From: Lachnospiraceae bacterium
GTDB taxonomy: Bacteria; Bacillota; Clostridia; Lachnospirales; Lachnospiraceae
Direction of reading: 5' to 3'
Assembly: GCA_017618075.1 (NCBI GenBank)
Contig: JAFZUY010000040.1
Span: forward strand, 1-43,808
Length of the DNA: 43,808 nt
The position numbers and the translations under genes are program-made. The notes beneath the pieces are model-generated. The model did no database searches and was not told the DNA's origin. It was given only the letters and a program-made list of their open reading frames with translations. Below, piece by piece: positions 25,794 to 34,438 of this stretch. How positions within the stretch are numbered: position 1 is the first letter of the stretch; every line of letters starts with the position of its first letter.

Positions 25794-25821
25794 CTGCCCG
25801 AGAATCTTTCGGGCAGTTTTT
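25794..25821 (+). terminator. intrinsic terminator
   Basis: CTGCCCGA/TCGGGCAG forms an 8-bp stem with a 7-base loop and is followed by five T residues, nine bases after the acyltransferase stop. Confidence 0.9.
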
Positions 25822-25906: not shown

Positions 25907-26944
25907 ATGAATATTGTAGTACTTGCAGGGGGCAATTCTACCGAAAGAGATGTATCATTGGTTTCCGGTAAAGCGGTATATGAGGCTTTAAAATCCAAAG
26001 GCCACAATGTGGTTTTGCTTGATGTCTTTTTCGGAATAGAAGATGTTGATGTTGAAAACATATTTGAAGATAAAAGAGACTGGGCGGAAGGAATTAAAAA
26101 AATCGGCGTAGACAATCCCGACTCAGACTATATAAAGAGCTTAAAAGGTTCCGACAAAGATTTCTTCGGAAAGAACGTTCGAGAGATCTGCATGAAGGCA
26201 GACTTCGTATTTATGGCTCTTCACGGCGCCAACGGAGAGGACGGAAGAATCCAGGCAGCGCTTGACTTAATGCAGGTTAAGTATTCAGGCACCGATTATT
26301 TAAGCAGCGCCATCTGTATGGATAAATCCATCACCAAGGAACTCTTCATAATGAACGGCATCCGCACTCCGAAGGCTTATACGATAAGAACCGAGGACGG
26401 CTTTAAAGACGCCGTAAAAGAAATAGGCTTCCCGATGGTTGTTAAGGCACCAAACGGCGGTTCATCCGTAGGCGTATACATTGTAGATACCGAAGAAGAA
26501 GCATTTAACGCTATGAAGGAATGCTTCAAGCTTGATAATCACGTTCTCTTTGAACAGTACATTAAGGGAAGAGAATTTACCTGCGGCGTGATTGACGGTA
26601 AGGCACTTCCGATCGTTGAGATAGAGCCCGTCGAAGGCTTTTATGATTACAAAAACAAATATCAGGCAGGAAGCACGGTTGAAACTTGTCCCGCGAAACT
26701 GGACGAGGATATTACCCTCAATATTCAGAAGCATGCGGAAGAAGCATTCAAGGCACTTCATATTAAAACCTATGCCCGTATAGATTTTATTTTAAGCGAG
26801 CAGAATGAAGACTTCTGTCTTGAAGCAAATACGATTCCCGGTATGACACCGATGTCGTTAATACCTCAGGAGGCAAAGGTTTTGGGAATCGATTTCCCCG
26901 AACTTTGCGAGAAGATAATCGAGATATCGTTGAAAAAATATTAA
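25907..26944 (+). CDS. ddl: D-alanine--D-alanine ligase
   Basis: The 345-aa ATP-grasp enzyme joins two D-Ala for peptidoglycan. The N terminus VLAGGNSTERDVSLVSGKAV and the GGSSVGVYIV loop near residues 184-193 are typical. The C-terminal EANTIPGMTPMSLIPQ near 305-320 supplies metal and substrate contacts. An in-frame ATG at 25781 is inside the preceding gene and upstream of the promoter, so 25907 (GGAG nine bases upstream) is the start. It is the first gene of the operon, followed by murF, which uses its product. Confidence 0.95.
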   Translation: MNIVVLAGGNSTERDVSLVSGKAVYEALKSKGHNVVLLDVFFGIEDVDVENIFEDKRDWAEGIKKIGVDNPDSDYIKSLKGSDKDFFGKNVREICMKADFVFMALHGANGEDGRIQAALDLMQVKYSGTDYLSSAICMDKSITKELFIMNGIRTPKAYTIRTEDGFKDAVKEIGFPMVVKAPNGGSSVGVYIVDTEEEAFNAMKECFKLDNHVLFEQYIKGREFTCGVIDGKALPIVEIEPVEGFYDYKNKYQAGSTVETCPAKLDEDITLNIQKHAEEAFKALHIKTYARIDFILSEQNEDFCLEANTIPGMTPMSLIPQEAKVLGIDFPELCEKIIEISLKKY

Positions 26945-26989: not shown

Positions 26990-29900
26990 ATGAAAATACT
27001 GACTATAGAAAACATTGTTTCCGCATTAGGTGCAAACCTTGTAAACGGAGACGAATTTAAAGAAAAAGAAATACTCGGAGTTGCAATCGACTCGAGAAAA
27101 GTGGAAAAGGATTTTCTCTTCTTTGCATTCAAAGGAGACAAGGTTGACGGCCACGATTATATAAAAGCTGCTTTCGACAACGGAGCGGCTGCTGTCGTAT
27201 GCGAAAGAGTTCCCGAAGGCGAAGAGGGAGTCTGCATCGTAGTTGAAGATTCTGTCGAAGCTATTAAAAAGCTTGCCACGTACTACAGAGAAAAACTCGG
27301 AATAAAAGTAGTAGGCGTCACGGGCAGTATCGGCAAGACCACTACCAAAGAATTTATCGCTACGGTTCTTTCGCAGAAATACAATGTTTTCCGTACCGAA
27401 AAGAATCAGAACAACCTCATCGGTCTTCCTCTTTCGATATTAAACATAAAAGAAAACAACGAAGTAGCGGTACTCGAAATGGGTATCAGCGAATTCGGTG
27501 AAATGACCAAGTTATCGGAGATTGCAAAGCCGGATATCTGTGTCATCACAAATATCAGCGCATGCCACCTTGAAACATTAGGTTCGCTTGACGGCGTGCT
27601 TAAGGCAAAGACCGAAATCTTTGAGCATATGAATCCCGAAGGAAGCGTGGTTGTATGCGGCGATGACGAGCGCCTTGCAAGCATTGAAGAAGTAAAGGGT
27701 AAAAAGCCCGTTACATACGGTTTTGACGAAAAGAACGCAGTACATCCCACCAAGGTTGTTAACCGCGGTTTATGGGGCAGCGAATGTACTGTGGAAGACA
27801 GCGACGGAATCTTTAATATCAGCATTCCTCTTGCAGGAAAGCATATGGTACTTGATGCACTTGCAGCTGTAAGTGTTGCAAAGCTCCTTGATGTATCCGC
27901 TGAGCAGATCGGCTTTGGTATATCCTGCGTCAAAGCACTTTCCGGCAGAAACAACATCATTCAGAAAAACAGCATCACAATAATCGATGACTGCTATAAC
28001 GCAAGTCCCGAATCAATGAAGTCGGGTCTTGATCTTTTAACGGAAGCAATCACTCCCACAGTGGCTATTTTAGGAGATATGCTCGAACAGGGCGAAAACG
28101 AGGAAAAGAGCCACGAGGAAGTCGGAGCATATGCAGTAGAAAAAGGCATCAACACAATCGTCTGCGTCGGACCTCTTTCAAAGAAAATGTATGATAAGGC
28201 ACTTTCCGAGTCAGCCGTTAAATCAAACACAGAAGTGCTCTATTTCGCGACTGTAGATGAGGCAATAGAAAATCTTAACACCTATGTAAAGAAAGACGAT
28301 ACGGTGCTCATAAAAGCTTCAAACGGCATGCATTTTAACCGCATATTAGAAGCAATCACAAGCGACGAAAAGAAGGATACTTTTGAAAAGAGAGAAGAGA
28401 AACTTTTCGAAGCAGCGCAGAAAGTTCCCGATGATGCTTTAATAGGAGAGATAAAAGACGTAACACCCTCCGATGCTCCTGTAGCGGAAGTAAAAGAAGA
28501 AACCGCAGAGCCCGCAGCGGCACCTGCAAAAACTAAAAAGGTTAAGAGTGCGGATCAGAAGGAAAAAGAAAGCGCCGGAGCACAGATTGGCATTATCATT
28601 GCACTTGTAATCGTTGCAATTCTCGCAGGTGTAATTGCGTTTGGCATTGTAAAGCATAATATATACAAGAACGCTACACAGGGTACGATAGTTTACTACG
28701 CAAGCAATAAGTACGGCACGAAGGGTCTCATCGAAGACAACGTGCTTGCAAAGTCGAGCGATGATATCGTATGGAATACCGGCAGTCCTTATGTTCAGAT
28801 GGGCTATGACGGAAAATATTACTACTACGCAGTTCCCGACGGCGGAAACTATGAGATTTTCGTAACCGACAAATACGGCAAGAACAAAAAGTCCATAGAG
28901 AAAAACGTAAGAAGATATGAAATCCTTGATAAAGGAAGCATCATCTTTATCTCGGGCAATGGTCTTTACACATACAATGTGAAAAAGGATGAAACAAACT
29001 TAATCGGCGAATCGGTTTCTAAATTTGTTTTAAACAAAAAGAAAACCGAAGTTGCATTCTTCACATACGACGGTGATTTAAAGCGCATGAAAATAGGCGA
29101 TCAGGAATCTCTTGAAGTAATTGATACCGCAGTCACATCATTTGAATGCGCCGATGAAAAATTAAAGACGGTTTACTATTTCAAAAAATCCAGCCTTTAC
29201 GTCGGCAAAAAGGGTAAGCCTTCACTTCTTTTAAGCGAAGATGCCACAAAGGTTTATTTCGCACATAAAGAAAAGAAACCCATCATATATTTTAACGACT
29301 CCAAGAACGCACTCTGGTATTACAACGGCAAGGCAAAAGAAGCCGTTAAGGTTACCGATAATGGTCAGAATGTCTACGGTGCAACTTTGGGTTATGCTTC
29401 TTTTATGATTTATAAAGACGGCAAATGGGAATTTGTAAATAAGGATAATGTTTATACTTTTAAGGAATTTGAAACCGGTTCATTCACGCAGATTGTGGGC
29501 GCGGATTCCAAGCATATTTACTTCCTGGACGTTGATTCCGACAAGAATACAAGTTCGGTTTATTCCGTATCCGCAAAGGGCTTTTCCAAAGAGAAAAAGG
29601 TTGTAAACGAGACCGCAAATGTTGACAGCGTTGAATATATCGGTGAAGGATATATCTTCGTATTAAAGGATGACGGCGGCGGAAAGAAGGACCTCTACGA
29701 AAGAGAAAAACTCGTTGCAAGAAATATTGAACCCGGCAGCCTTAAAAAGACCGAGTACGGCGATGATTTTGTCTTCGCATATCAGGTTAAGGACGACGAC
29801 GGATTCTACAAGATCGTGCTTTTCGACGGCAAGAACATAAAAGACATCGGCAGCAGCCTTGATACCGATATTGTTGCCATGAGCAAAAAGAAAATTTACT

Positions 29901-30007
29901 TTAGATCTCGCGGCGAAAAGTCAGGATTTGAAATCAAATATTTTAACGGTCGCAAAGCAAAGACATATAAAGAAAGCATTGAAGAGTTTAAATATATTCA
30001 GTACTAG
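26990..30007 (+). CDS. murF: MurF ligase fused to a transmembrane helix and extracytoplasmic domain
   Basis: The protein is 1005 aa, more than twice the usual 450. Residues 1-455 are a complete MurF, which adds D-Ala-D-Ala to UDP-MurNAc-tripeptide. They include the ATP loop VTGSIGKTTTKEF near residues 108-120, the downstream NQNNLIG, DDCYNASPESM, and the C-terminal VLIKASNGMHFNRI. Residues 455-528 form a Glu/Ala/Lys-rich linker. A single membrane helix follows at about 530-553 (IGIIIALVIVAILAGVIAFG). The last 450 residues are a Tyr/Lys/Gly-rich repeat region resembling DUF5050 or beta-propeller domains and would lie outside the cell. The frame is continuous, with no internal ribosome-binding site. 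GGAGG at 26980-26984 supports the start. Confidence 0.9.
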   Translation: MKILTIENIVSALGANLVNGDEFKEKEILGVAIDSRKVEKDFLFFAFKGDKVDGHDYIKAAFDNGAAAVVCERVPEGEEGVCIVVEDSVEAIKKLATYYREKLGIKVVGVTGSIGKTTTKEFIATVLSQKYNVFRTEKNQNNLIGLPLSILNIKENNEVAVLEMGISEFGEMTKLSEIAKPDICVITNISACHLETLGSLDGVLKAKTEIFEHMNPEGSVVVCGDDERLASIEEVKGKKPVTYGFDEKNAVHPTKVVNRGLWGSECTVEDSDGIFNISIPLAGKHMVLDALAAVSVAKLLDVSAEQIGFGISCVKALSGRNNIIQKNSITIIDDCYNASPESMKSGLDLLTEAITPTVAILGDMLEQGENEEKSHEEVGAYAVEKGINTIVCVGPLSKKMYDKALSESAVKSNTEVLYFATVDEAIENLNTYVKKDDTVLIKASNGMHFNRILEAITSDEKKDTFEKREEKLFEAAQKVPDDALIGEIKDVTPSDAPVAEVKEETAEPAAAPAKTKKVKSADQKEKESAGAQIGIIIALVIVAILAGVIAFGIVKHNIYKNATQGTIVYYASNKYGTKGLIEDNVLAKSSDDIVWNTGSPYVQMGYDGKYYYYAVPDGGNYEIFVTDKYGKNKKSIEKNVRRYEILDKGSIIFISGNGLYTYNVKKDETNLIGESVSKFVLNKKKTEVAFFTYDGDLKRMKIGDQESLEVIDTAVTSFECADEKLKTVYYFKKSSLYVGKKGKPSLLLSEDATKVYFAHKEKKPIIYFNDSKNALWYYNGKAKEAVKVTDNGQNVYGATLGYASFMIYKDGKWEFVNKDNVYTFKEFETGSFTQIVGADSKHIYFLDVDSDKNTSSVYSVSAKGFSKEKKVVNETANVDSVEYIGEGYIFVLKDDGGGKKDLYEREKLVARNIEPGSLKKTEYGDDFVFAYQVKDDDGFYKIVLFDGKNIKDIGSSLDTDIVAMSKKKIYFRSRGEKSGFEIKYFNGRKAKTYKESIEEFKYIQY

Positions 30008-30019
30008 GCGGAGACTTAC

Positions 30020-31369
30020 ATGATAATAAAGAACGGTCGAATAATCGATCCTGCAAACCAAACAGACGCCATCGGAGATATCTTTGTCAAAGACGGTATC
30101 ATAACGAATGTGATCATAAAAGAGAATGTGTCCGATAATGCGGACATATCGGATGAAGAAATTATAGATGCAACGGGCCTTGTCGTAATGCCCGGCTTTA
30201 TAGATGTTCATTCACATTTCAGAGATCCCGGATTTGAATACAAGGAAGATATTTATACCGGCGCCAAAGCAGCGGCAGCAGGCGGATATACGACCGTTGT
30301 TTTAATGTGTAACACAAAACCCACAGTGGATACTCCAAAGACTTTGGATTACGTTTTAAACAAAGGGAAAGAAACCGACATAAAAGTCGAATCCTGCTCA
30401 ACCGTAACCTACGGTTTAAAGGGCGAGAAGCTCACGGATTTCGACGAAATGATTAAGCACGGCGCTGTCGGATTTACCGATGACGGCATTCCTCTGATGG
30501 ATGAAAACATTCTACGCGAAGCATTCAGGAAAGCGAAAGATTATCCCGTCAGCCTTCACGAAGAAGATAAAACGCTCATAAAAAACAACGGCATCAATCA
30601 CGGAAAAGCAAGTGAGTTTTATGGTGTATACGGCTCGCCCAGAGAAGCGGAAATAAGTCTTATAAAAAGAGATTTACAGATAGCGCTCGAAGAAGGCGGA
30701 ATGATAGATGTGCAGCATATTTCCTCAAAGGAAGGTGTAGAACTTGTTAGAAACGCGTTAAAGAAAGACATGGCAAACCAAGGAGTTTCAGAAGGATTTG
30801 CTATGGAAAATAGCGCTGAAGGCAATTCGAAACCGACGAGGCATATTCACGCTGAAGCAACACCTCAGCATTTCTCGCTTACCGAAGATGCGTTGATAGA
30901 AAAAGGCACGCTTGGAAAATTAAATCCTCCGTTCAGAGAAGAGGCCGACAGACTTGCAATCATCGAAGGCCTTAAGGACGGAACGATAGATTTAATCGCA
31001 ACCGATCATGCACCTCACGCGGCAGAAGAAAAGGCCAAGAGCATAACTGAAGCTCCAAGCGGAATGATCGGTCTTGAAACTGCATTCGCACTTGCTGTTA
31101 CACATCTTGTAAATGAAGCAGGAATGAGTTTGTCGGATGTTGTAAGTAAGATTACGATTAATCCCGCAACTTTATATAAATTTGATCGCGGAACAATAAG
31201 TATTGGCAAACCCGCGGACATCACTATCGCTGATGTGAATGAAAAGTGGGTTGTAACGGAAGATGATTTCAAATCGAAGTCTCACAATTCGCCTTTTTTA
31301 GGAGAAGAACTTACAGGAAGAATCAGGTACACAATTTGCGATGGTCGAATAGTGTATAAGAACATATAG
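30020..31369 (+). CDS. pyrC: dihydroorotase
   Basis: The 449-aa class I dihydroorotase closes carbamoyl-aspartate to dihydroorotate in pyrimidine synthesis. DVHSHFRDPG near residues 62-71 carries the metal-binding HxH, and LIATDHAPHA near 330-339 is the second metal motif. Between the usual QHISSKEGVELVR and HAEATPQHF segments, a stretch of about 20 extra residues (near 255-273, with GVSEGFAMENSAEGNSKP) departs from the compact family form. It lies 12 bases after murF and 8 before pyrK. Confidence 0.94.
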   Translation: MIIKNGRIIDPANQTDAIGDIFVKDGIITNVIIKENVSDNADISDEEIIDATGLVVMPGFIDVHSHFRDPGFEYKEDIYTGAKAAAAGGYTTVVLMCNTKPTVDTPKTLDYVLNKGKETDIKVESCSTVTYGLKGEKLTDFDEMIKHGAVGFTDDGIPLMDENILREAFRKAKDYPVSLHEEDKTLIKNNGINHGKASEFYGVYGSPREAEISLIKRDLQIALEEGGMIDVQHISSKEGVELVRNALKKDMANQGVSEGFAMENSAEGNSKPTRHIHAEATPQHFSLTEDALIEKGTLGKLNPPFREEADRLAIIEGLKDGTIDLIATDHAPHAAEEKAKSITEAPSGMIGLETAFALAVTHLVNEAGMSLSDVVSKITINPATLYKFDRGTISIGKPADITIADVNEKWVVTEDDFKSKSHNSPFLGEELTGRIRYTICDGRIVYKNI

Positions 31370-31377
31370 GAGGCAAC

Positions 31378-32154
31378 ATGTTTTACAGAAATATTGATGA
31401 AGGGAAGGTAATTTCGCAGGAAGAAATTTCAAGCGGAATCTTCAGCCTTCTCGTTGAGAATAAAGGTGCAGCATTTGCGTCGCCCGGACAGTTTGTAGGA
31501 GTTTATCCAAACAGCAAGGATACTCTTTTAATGCGTCCGATCAGCATATGCGAAACCGTGGACGGAGCCACAAGACTTGTTTACAGAGTCGCAGGAAAAG
31601 GCACCAAGGAATTTTCATCACTTAAGAAGGGCGACAGCGTCAGACTTCTTGCCAACCTTGGAAACGGCTTCCCCGTTGACGAAGTAAAGGGAAAATGCAT
31701 CGTGCTTATGGGTGGCGGTATCGGTATTCCTCCCATGCTTGGTGTTGCAAAAGCACTTAAGGGTGAAGACGTTCACGCATATCTTGGTTTTAGAAATAAT
31801 GATACATTTCTTGCAGACGAATTCATGCAGTACTGTAAGCTCTACCTTGCAAGCGAAGACGGCAGCGTCGGCGTAAAAGGAAATGTTCTTGACGCACTTA
31901 GAGCAAGCACAGGCATAAAGCCCGACGTGATCATGGCATGCGGCCCCATGCCCATGCTTCGTGCGATTAAGAAGTACGCAGAAGAGAATAACATCACAGC
32001 ATACATTTCACTCGAAGAACGTATGGCCTGCGGCGTTGGAGCATGTCTTGGCTGCGTATGTAAGACGGTTAAAAAAGATGATCATTCACATGTAAACAAT
32101 ACAAGAATCTGTACCGAAGGTCCGGTTTTTGATGCAAGGGAGGTGGATATCTGA
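31378..32154 (+). CDS. pyrK: dihydroorotate dehydrogenase B, electron-transfer subunit
   Basis: The 258-aa FAD- and [2Fe-2S]-binding partner of PyrD passes electrons to NAD+. The C-terminal cluster motif reads ACGVGACLGCVC (near residues 217-228) with a fourth Cys near 242. The FAD-binding region is RPISICETVDG near residue 52, and GGGIGIPPML near 113-122 is the NAD-binding loop. A good AGGAGG lies upstream. Its stop overlaps the pyrD start (TGATG). Confidence 0.94.
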   Translation: MFYRNIDEGKVISQEEISSGIFSLLVENKGAAFASPGQFVGVYPNSKDTLLMRPISICETVDGATRLVYRVAGKGTKEFSSLKKGDSVRLLANLGNGFPVDEVKGKCIVLMGGGIGIPPMLGVAKALKGEDVHAYLGFRNNDTFLADEFMQYCKLYLASEDGSVGVKGNVLDALRASTGIKPDVIMACGPMPMLRAIKKYAEENNITAYISLEERMACGVGACLGCVCKTVKKDDHSHVNNTRICTEGPVFDAREVDI

Positions 32155-33056
32155 TGAATACAAAAGTTACCATCGCCGGTGTGGAATTTAAAAATCCCGT
32201 TATGACTGCATCGGGAACATTCGGCTCAGGAATGGAATATTCGCAGTTCGTGGATTTAAACAGATTAGGCGCAGTTGTTACCAAGGGTGTCAGCAACGTA
32301 CCCTGGACGGGCAACCCTACTCCGAGAGTGGCAGAGGTTTACGGAGGCATGCTTAATGCCATTGGCCTTCAAAACCCCGGCGTCGACGTCATGATTGAGC
32401 GAGACCTTCCTTTCCTCGCAAAGTACGACACAAAGGTAATCGTTAATGTTTGCGGAAAATCTGTCGAAGATTATATTGAAGCGGTTGAGAGATTAAACGA
32501 TACCGCGGTCGATATGTTTGAAATAAACGTATCCTGCCCCAACGTAAAAGAAGGCGCCATCGCTTTCGGACAGAAGGCAGATGCACTTTTTAACATAACA
32601 GATAAAATCAAAAAAGCTTCAAAGAAACCCATCATCATGAAGCTTTCACCAAATGTCACGGACATTACGGAGATGGCGAAGGCAGCAGAGGCAGCAGGTA
32701 GCGATGCAATCTCGCTTATCAATACCATTACCGGAATGAAGATTGACATTGAAAGAAGAAAAATGGTGCTTGCAAACAAAACCGGCGGAATGTCCGGCCC
32801 TGCGATAAAGCCTGTTGCGGTAAGAATGGTTTACCAGTGCTCAAAGGCCGTTAAAATCCCCATCATCGGAATGGGCGGTATTATGAACGGCGAGGATGCC
32901 ATCGAGTTTATTATGGCAGGTGCGAGCGCAGTAGCAGTGGGCGCAGCAAACTTTATCAATCCTTATGCAACAATAGATGTGGTTGAAGGTATAGAAAGAT
33001 TTATGATTTCCCACAATATTGCCGATATAAATGATATCAGAGGTTGTGTGGAATAG
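32154..33056 (+). CDS. pyrD: dihydroorotate dehydrogenase B, catalytic subunit
   Basis: The 300-aa class 1B enzyme oxidises dihydroorotate using FMN and works as a complex with PyrK, whose gene is immediately upstream. Key segments are NPVMTASGTFGSGMEY, the ISCP-type EINVSCPNVKEG near residues 122-133 with the catalytic Cys, and IIGMGGIMNGEDAIEFIMAG near 239-258 for FMN phosphate. AGGGAGGTGG provides a ribosome-binding site. pyrE and pyrF are not in the window. Confidence 0.95.
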   Translation: MNTKVTIAGVEFKNPVMTASGTFGSGMEYSQFVDLNRLGAVVTKGVSNVPWTGNPTPRVAEVYGGMLNAIGLQNPGVDVMIERDLPFLAKYDTKVIVNVCGKSVEDYIEAVERLNDTAVDMFEINVSCPNVKEGAIAFGQKADALFNITDKIKKASKKPIIMKLSPNVTDITEMAKAAEAAGSDAISLINTITGMKIDIERRKMVLANKTGGMSGPAIKPVAVRMVYQCSKAVKIPIIGMGGIMNGEDAIEFIMAGASAVAVGAANFINPYATIDVVEGIERFMISHNIADINDIRGCVE

Positions 33057-33081
33057 GAGCAAATGTTTCGGGGGATATGAT

Positions 33082-34383
33082 ATGGCAATTAACAAAACCG
33101 TAAGAGAAAAAGCATATGCTAAGGTTAATCTCGGACTCGATGTTTTAAGAAAACGCGAAGACGGATATCATGAAGTAAAAATGGTGATGCAGACCATCGG
33201 TATCTGCGATGAACTGATTATATCCACTTCGGCCGATACTCACGGAGTTACCCTAAAAGCAGACGTAGACAATCTTCCGCTTGACGATACCAACTTAATT
33301 GTCAAAGCGGCAAATCTTATAATCGAAAAATACGGCATCAAACAGGGCATTGAAGTAAAGCTCATAAAAAATATTCCGATGTCAGCAGGCCTCGCGGGCG
33401 GAAGCTCCGATGCGGCTGCAACACTTCGCGGAATGAACAGACTCTTTGGCCTCGGTTTAACCGATGAAGAACTTTGCAGACTCGGAGTAAGAATCGGCGC
33501 AGACGTGCCTTACTGCATCCGCGGCGGCACATATTTGGCAGAAGGCTTGGGCGAAATCCTCACTAAACTTCCCGACGTGCCTCAGTGCACTGTGCTTGTT
33601 GCAAAACCCAAATTCGGCGTTTCCACAGGCTACGTATATCAGAACTTAAGACTTGACCAGGTGCGCAAACATCCCGACGTAGATGCGGTTGTAGACTGCG
33701 TCAAGAAGAATGACTTAAAAGGCATCGCTTTCAACATGGAAAACATCCTCGAGACAGTTACCATCCGCGACTATCCTTTTATCCAGATCATAAAAGACAT
33801 AATGAACGACTTCGGCGCTTTGAAAGCCCTGATGAGCGGCAGCGGTCCTACAGTATTCGGATTGTTTGATAACAAGGCAAATGCAGAAAGGGCAGCAGTT
33901 ACTTTACGAGATCTCGACGATGTCGGCGATGTAATTGTTACATGCTTCGAAAATCTTAACTCCGACGAAGTCACCAAGAAAGCTCAGATTACTCTTAAAA
34001 GTGTAATGGATGCCGACGAACCTTCGATTGAAGTTCATGACTGTATCGCAGTTGAGAAGCGCGGAACCATCAGCGTATCCTATCGCGAAAAAGATCCCGA
34101 GACCGGTTCCGAAATCCTCAACACCATGACCATCAGCGACAGGCGCCTTGATTACAGCAAGGCAGGCTCAACCAGCACCCACATGGTCATCACTCCTGAT
34201 GAGGCAACTAGTACGATTTACAGAACTCCTTTCGGAAACATCATCATTGATATCATCTGCCATGAGTATGTTCTCAACGAAATCGCTGACAGAATCATGC
34301 TCGAACTTGATTATGATGTGATGCAGGGCGGCACAAACGTTAACCATTGCAATATGACTATTGAGATAGAGTACAACATCTAA
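33082..34383 (+). CDS. ispE: IspE kinase fused to a DUF1934 (YwiB-like) domain
   Basis: The protein is 433 aa. Residues 1-285 are 4-diphosphocytidyl-2-C-methyl-D-erythritol kinase of the non-mevalonate isoprenoid pathway, with AYAKVNLGLDVL at the start and the GHMP ATP loop PMSAGLAGGSSDAAATLRGM near residues 97-116. Residues 300-433 match the DUF1934 lipocalin-like family: SIEVHDCIAVEK, STHMVITPDEATSTIYRTPF and LELDYDVMQGGTNVNH. The two are normally separate genes. An upstream in-frame ATG at 33031 lies within pyrD; GGGGGA at 33070-33075 supports 33082. No internal ribosome-binding site precedes the second domain. It is the last gene of the operon. Confidence 0.88.
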   Translation: MAINKTVREKAYAKVNLGLDVLRKREDGYHEVKMVMQTIGICDELIISTSADTHGVTLKADVDNLPLDDTNLIVKAANLIIEKYGIKQGIEVKLIKNIPMSAGLAGGSSDAAATLRGMNRLFGLGLTDEELCRLGVRIGADVPYCIRGGTYLAEGLGEILTKLPDVPQCTVLVAKPKFGVSTGYVYQNLRLDQVRKHPDVDAVVDCVKKNDLKGIAFNMENILETVTIRDYPFIQIIKDIMNDFGALKALMSGSGPTVFGLFDNKANAERAAVTLRDLDDVGDVIVTCFENLNSDEVTKKAQITLKSVMDADEPSIEVHDCIAVEKRGTISVSYREKDPETGSEILNTMTISDRRLDYSKAGSTSTHMVITPDEATSTIYRTPFGNIIIDIICHEYVLNEIADRIMLELDYDVMQGGTNVNHCNMTIEIEYNI

Positions 34384-34408: not shown

Positions 34409-34438
34409 AAAATGCAGGTCCACGACCTGCATTTTGTT
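34409..34438 (+). terminator. bidirectional terminator between ispE and the convergent gene
   Basis: AATGCAGGTC/GACCTGCATT forms a 10-bp stem with a CAC loop, extended by A-T pairs. An A tract precedes and a T tract follows, so it can serve both strands. Confidence 0.92.

Follow-up and report, generated by a model that had tools for sequence, protein, structure and literature searches.

A MurF ligase joined through a linker and one membrane helix to a probable beta-propeller domain in Lachnospiraceae

The fused gene and its parts

The window analyzed here, a stretch of 43,808 nucleotides, is the forward strand of contig JAFZUY010000040.1 from a Lachnospiraceae bacterium (assembly GCA_017618075.1). 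At positions 26990-30007 (+) it contains a single open frame of 1005 codons with zero internal stops, which encodes a complete MurF ligase, a linker, one helix and a repeat domain, and this gene was confirmed as a real fusion. The original prediction, made from the window alone, had described a complete MurF, one membrane helix and a large domain in one frame. That description held: the frame was intact, the MurF model TIGR01143 was matched above its cut-off, and only one strongly hydrophobic segment was found in the entire protein (best 19-residue window, 533-551). The parts of the gene are as follows.

26990..30007, + strand: fused murF gene, ATG at 26990, stop TAG at 30005-30007, 1005 aa
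26980..26984, + strand: Shine-Dalgarno GGAGG of murF, read from the sequence
26990..28354, + strand: MurF enzyme part, residues 1-455 (TIGR01143, Pfam Mur ligase domains, motifs aligned to 4qdi)
28355..28585, + strand: charged Ala/Pro/Glu/Lys linker, residues 456-532 (~75 residues), from sequence
28586..28654, + strand: single transmembrane helix, residues ~533-555, from hydropathy
28655..30004, + strand: presumed extracytoplasmic domain, residues 556-1005 (~450 aa), probable beta-propeller related to DUF5050 (profile self-alignment, ortholog in genome G203, weak structure matches)

The TIGR01143 match scored 416.5 bits (cut-off, 288.6) over residues 33-455, covering profile positions 1-417 of 418, and three Pfam Mur ligase domains, all above cut-off, spanned residues 28-444. 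The top solved-structure relatives of the enzyme part were MurF enzymes, with 4qdi at E 7.3e-61, and the motifs TGSIGKTT, KAKTE and DDCYNASPESM aligned to this structure. Residues T111-S113, G115-T117, K205-E209 and D333-A338 were invariant across 16 fused proteins; we take them to form the ATP-binding P-loop and the conserved ligase motifs. Solved MurF enzymes (4qdi, 3zl8, 1gg4, 2am1) share the three domains and the conserved motifs with the enzyme part, but their chains end at 437-475 residues, whereas the window protein adds the linker, the helix and a 450-residue domain. Models of bifunctional Mur proteins fell short (PRK11929, 389 of 1023 bits; PRK11930, 255 of 804). The C-terminal ~450 residues matched zero Pfam families above cut-off, and no enzyme family passed its cut-off in the C-terminal half, where no second wall-synthesis enzyme domain was detected.

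Ratios of nonsynonymous to synonymous substitution (dN/dS) were calculated by the Nei-Gojobori method for eight pairs. Six pairs, drawn among genomes G000, G220, G222, G214, G205 and G210 (four window-relative, two relative-relative), were finite in every part and gave 0.03-0.09 for the linker, 0-0.16 for the helix and 0.05-0.10 for the outer domain; MurF, finite in seven of the eight, gave 0.02-0.06. Some linker and outer-domain dS values exceeded 1, so these ratios are rough, and both pairs with G200 were saturated in most parts. The enzyme, the linker and the outer domain are all under purifying selection. The outer domain evolves faster than MurF (57% vs 86% identity with G200) and showed no sign of decay. 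It was only 20% identical between G216 and the window, with no BLAST match to the window's domain at E 1e-6, and fused relative G222 lacks ~22 of its residues, in frame. By eye, the last ~20 outer-domain residues appear duplicated in G219 (L014).

Distribution and origin of the fusion

Among titled genome records, 14 loci matched the window protein, 11 of them over its whole length (residues 1-2 to 1002-1005) at 53-98% identity; L017 was cut by a contig end, and L019 and L020 matched MurF alone. The closest match, at 98% identity and with the same fusion, was Lachnospiraceae bacterium G41, whose record is not labelled as a metagenome-assembled genome (MAG) and was read as that of an isolate.

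The genus comprised 31 genomes, of which 25 had a MurF above the TIGR01143 cut-off, exactly one each: 17 fused, five with separate murF and outer-domain ("propeller") genes, and three without a propeller gene. Sixteen of the 17 fused genes, that of the window's genome included, were uninterrupted (open frames of 989-1082 residues, with linkers of 59-117 residues); in G223 a contig end cut the gene, with residues 424-1005 continuous on one contig. The fusion, free of stops down to ~38-41% full-length identity, was found in one group of Lachnospiraceae from rumen and gut. The separate genes adjoin in G201, G226, G213 and G208; in G203 they lie ~13 kb apart, and the intervening genes include one for a leucine-rich-repeat protein. 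In G120, G209 and G202, murF is followed directly by pyrC, and the outer-domain profile search detected no propeller gene; G228 has a partial murF only, likewise directly before pyrC. No MurF above cut-off and no propeller match was found in G217, G221, G224, G225 and G227. As the profile finds its 22 source genomes by construction, the informative part of this search is the nine genomes without a match. G225, G217 and G221 (L063, L064 and L065; 98, 93 and 73% complete) encode a MurF-like protein of 538-567 residues, 26-28% identical over the matched part, and in G225 and G217 a Ddl-like gene, also 26-28% identical, lies beside it, a possible replacement of the canonical MurF/Ddl pair.

In G201 and G226 both genes share one frame and are parted by one TAA, followed by AGGAGG or GGGAGG and then ATG. 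The propeller gene of G213 and G208 is in a different frame from murF. A Shine-Dalgarno sequence before the separate propeller gene was clear in G201, G226 and G208, weak in G213 and not evident in G203. The murF TAA of G213 lies opposite GAG/GAA codons of the fused genes in G204, G207 and G212, and part of the G213 spacer aligns with their linker.

A tree of five genes (28 rows, 1778 columns) was preferred over a murF-only tree, in which deep support was weak and the group without propeller genes was placed inside. The tree omits the five genomes with no MurF above cut-off, while G228 is missing from the murF alignment only; its two outgroups contribute ddl and murF only. The fused genomes appeared in two places. 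On the best tree the fused label changes three times, and well-supported branches force two of these changes; one-change trees made up 0 of 200 bootstrap trees. A single clade of fused genomes was rejected by the approximately unbiased (AU) test (p 8.6e-5); therefore, the fused state changed at least twice. The shortest history we see has two fusions of neighbouring genes and places G213 at the base of its group; a single fusion followed by splits would take more steps. Change counts alone do not separate gain from loss, and the direction of the changes is our inference; MurF was apparently joined to its neighbouring gene more than once.

In the 16 whole fused genes we also looked for internal start codons (ATG, GTG or TTG) preceded by one of a set of Shine-Dalgarno motifs. 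G216 (L062) has AAGGAG ahead of codon 496, an in-frame ATG, and weaker motifs were found in G204, G207 and G212. The other 12 genes, that of the window with its linker included, showed no internal start preceded by a motif of the set. The pattern reads as if these internal starts were relics that the main fused group has lost. The G216 ATG may be where the former propeller gene began, either as a relic or as a start still in use.

The relatives carry the genes of this locus in the order ddl - murF - propeller - pyrC - pyrK - pyrD. The window carries the following around the fused gene.

25794-25816: 10-pair terminator-like hairpin before ddl (pattern scan only)
25907..26944, + strand: ddl, D-Ala-D-Ala ligase, which makes the MurF substrate (Pfam Dala_Dala_lig_N/C)
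30020..31369, + strand: presumable pyrC-like dihydroorotase, 12 bases past the fused-gene stop (Pfam Amidohydro_1, synteny)
31378..33056, + strand: presumably pyrK-like (31378-32154) and pyrD-like (32154-33056) genes (open frames, conserved order in relatives)
33031..34383, + strand: GHMP kinase-DUF1934 fusion (Pfam; relatives start near residue 13-18)
34409..34435, + strand: 12-pair terminator-like hairpin after these genes (pattern scan only)

The listed ddl frame begins at GTG 25781; relatives start at its residue 43 (ATG 25907). We take the dihydroorotase name from its family and the pyrK-like and pyrD-like names from position; the dihydroorotase gene served to mark the locus in relatives. 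The hairpin scan found 13 sites, against 9.6 expected in shuffles. The GHMP kinase-DUF1934 gene is a second fusion of adjacent genes. It was whole in 13 of 30 matched genomes of the genus, and these are the main fused group (G000, G200, G205, G206, G210, G211, G214, G215, G218, G219, G220, G222 and G223); in the other 17 it was interrupted by stops or split, or the kinase part alone was matched. G216 as well as G204, G207 and G212 carry the MurF fusion without this second one.

The outer domain and other long MurF proteins

The outer-domain profile was built from an alignment of 22 sequences (A1). Aligned to itself, it matched at an 84-residue shift (E 1.3e-10) and more weakly at shifts of ~117-122 (E 1.4e-4 and 3.1e-4), as expected for repeated blades of ~40 residues; the original description of the domain as repeat-rich is thereby borne out. 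The separate-gene ortholog of G203 passed the Pfam model of DUF5050 (PF16472; 32.2 against a cut-off of 27), a domain that one study of TsgL describes as a beta-propeller (PMC11217815). From these matches, the outer domain is probably a beta-propeller related to DUF5050. The window protein was not among PF16472 matches at E 1, nor were the separate orthologs of G201, G213 and G208 at E 0.1. Against solved structures, the profile matched 13 sequences at E up to 1, none significantly: tricorn protease was best (E 0.033), and the matches were mixed, with DPP6 and also interleukin-1 and Numb. TsgL, which belongs to the type VII secretion system (T7SS) variant T7SSg, offers a likeness through its propeller-type DUF5050 domain; no T7SS gene was found among the Pfam-scanned neighbours in the window.

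When the part from the linker to the outer domain was searched as a single sequence against 200 family genomes, no outer-domain relatives were found beyond the window; the search matched just three low-complexity linker-helix stretches in unrelated proteins (L003 of the same genome, G127 and G044). The profile matched 25 of 299 family genomes, the window's own included. Of five scanned relatives, four had N-terminal zinc-ribbon matches (L069 exactly at cut-off) and one had none, and CxxC pairs were seen by eye in several more; the separate orthologs of G201, G213, G208 and G203 gave no zinc-ribbon match at E 0.1. The zinc ribbon-helix-propeller proteins (L068, L069, L070 and L074) have the same helix-propeller module as the window protein (L068, hhalign 99.2%, E 1.7e-19), but bear a zinc ribbon at the cytoplasmic end, where the window protein has MurF. 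The helix-propeller module thus forms a separate family whose members often bear a small head on the cytoplasmic side; in this genus MurF has taken that place. The fusion links an uncharacterized surface module of Lachnospiraceae to wall synthesis.

A survey of MurF lengths in Lachnospiraceae, suggested in the original prediction, brought out further long types. Open-frame MurF was matched in 285 of 299 family genomes at E 1e-60, and among the matches listed the frames longer than 600 residues were those of the window, G097 and G012. The order survey (119 of 136 genomes matched at E 1e-80) added G392, G409 and G424, and the phylum survey (130 of 139) added G504 and G580. Read from their sequences, G392 and G409 are MurE-MurF proteins, and G097 and G580 are MurF-racemase proteins; the long frame of G424 was discarded as an overlap only. 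G504 (L098:56-2563 (+)) appears by reading to carry Ddl ahead of MurF in one chain.

In another genus of the family, the MurF of G012 and its genus mate G328 (L088:1544-3685 (-) and L094; two of two genomes) continues into a Pro-rich linker and 5-6 hydrophobic segments, a predicted second kind of MurF membrane tether. As in the window, a ddl-like gene lies upstream and the order is MurF, linker, membrane part; unlike the window protein, it has several hydrophobic segments and no large outer domain, and its membrane part had no Pfam match.

Known MurF fusions differ in their partners. In MurE-MurF (also PRK11929) the partner is a second cytoplasmic ligase, joined by a ~20-residue linker, and in our surveys this type was seen only in families other than the window's (G392 and G409, by reading). 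MurF-alanine racemase (PRK11930) resembles the window protein in having an N-terminal MurF in a longer chain, but its partner is a soluble enzyme. The original prediction knew of no described system of this kind, and in the literature searched, with subscription papers and preprints outside its scope, we likewise found no description of a MurF with a membrane helix or a propeller.

Tethering of MurF and alternative explanations

MurF must face the cytoplasm. With a single helix, the C-terminal half should therefore be outside, and in 22 of 22 proteins the stretch before the helix held more Lys plus Arg than the stretch after it. We propose that murF was joined in frame to a downstream gene for a membrane-anchored, propeller-type repeat protein. 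The resulting single polypeptide would have an active MurF on the cytoplasmic side, then ~60-120 residues of flexible linker, the helix and, outside, the propeller. Because the fused MurF is the sole MurF found, UDP-MurNAc-pentapeptide would come from the tethered enzyme and be made at the cytoplasmic side of the membrane, the place where MraY consumes it. A linker of this length leaves MurF free to move about close to the membrane, as fits a tether more than a relay of signals. The outer domain would most likely bind some wall component or a partner in the membrane and so position or retain the protein. We lean, by a modest degree, towards this account: MurF tethered to the membrane through gene fusion, as a single uncleaved product with the propeller outside. 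Its single product, topology, activity, localization and benefit, as well as the proximity of MurF to MraY, are inferred.

Several observations weigh against this account. A complete murF without a detectable propeller gene occurs in three genomes, two of them (G120 and G209) ~100% complete, so MurF needs neither the propeller nor the fusion. Net charge around the helix favours the N-terminus inside in 10 of 22 proteins, is equal in eight and opposite in four, the window protein among the four. The G012 and G328 proteins are 99% identical and close to one observation, and the three fused relatives of G213 were not rejected as one clade (AU p 0.35), yet this clade is absent from the best tree. 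Finally, a lineage that readily joins neighbouring genes weakens the case for the MurF fusion being favoured for itself.

This last point keeps plausible a near-neutral origin, in which the stop between neighbours in an operon was lost, MurF tolerates a C-terminal load, both parts keep their old, unrelated jobs and the tethering has no function. The single in-frame TAA of G201 and G226, the coexistence of fused and separate states within one genus, and the second fusion, whole in the 13 main-clade genomes and in none of the other 17 matched, speak for such a history. However, the MurF fusion stands at two positions of the tree, including genomes without the second fusion, the linker is under selection, and another membrane-tethered MurF exists in the family; we regard a near-neutral fusion as rather unlikely, while taking it seriously. 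Linker cleavage or an internal start could also yield two products from one frame, so that MurF would be soluble and the propeller a separate membrane protein, as in the relatives with unlinked genes. The length and charge of the linker speak for this, as does the in-frame ATG behind AAGGAG in G216, with weaker candidates in G204, G207 and G212, but the window and 11 other main-clade genes have no motif-backed internal start in the linker, and this seems improbable to us.

The original prediction also suggested that an external sensor might influence precursor synthesis, and the corresponding model has the outer domain sense the wall or the environment and alter MurF activity across the membrane. 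Nothing we found supports this: a single helix and a linker of 59-117 residues offer no evident conformational path, and the parts are unlinked in five relatives, which suggests that the outer domain can act unlinked. Among four neighbourhoods of outer-domain relatives, G229 has an adjacent Ser/Thr kinase gene and G013 a kinase one gene away, plus PP2C, FHA and VWA genes, so the family may join in signalling, but no kinase was seen by eye in G241 and G114; we consider a sensor very unlikely. As for a sequencing or assembly error merging two genes, the original prediction would have read separate genes in relatives, with a stop codon and ribosome-binding site between, as its sign. Such relatives exist, with a stop codon in five (G201, G226, G213, G208 and G203) and a Shine-Dalgarno sequence in most. 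They point to the origin of the fusion rather than to an error, because 17 genomes of the genus, including G41, are fused; with the fusion stop-free down to the lowest identities and in a record not labelled as a MAG, an error was rejected with practical certainty.

A membrane-tethered MurF would fit earlier proposals. A review argues for a membrane-associated MurF-MraY-MurG complex and reports binding of MurF to MreB; that the cytoplasmic Mur enzymes work in a membrane complex with MraY and MurG is an open proposal (PMC4929429). For Bordetella pertussis, one report describes a murF fused to its neighbour as MurE-MurF, thought to aid a multi-enzyme complex, and binding of this protein to MurG (PMC6420597). 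Tethering MurF covalently could have the same effect. Here the sole MurF is apparently covalently tethered, and sister species have both proteins unlinked or the second absent; this series, from none to separate, fused with a possible relic start and fused without one, makes the value of a membrane-bound MurF directly testable. More boldly, and with considerable doubt, the external propeller may bind nascent wall or a wall partner and concentrate the sole MurF at sites of wall synthesis, or adjust its activity, and evolution in Lachnospiraceae may have arrived at a membrane-tethered MurF more than once, using two distinct membrane modules. If so, the wall outside the cell would be coupled to the last soluble precursor step.

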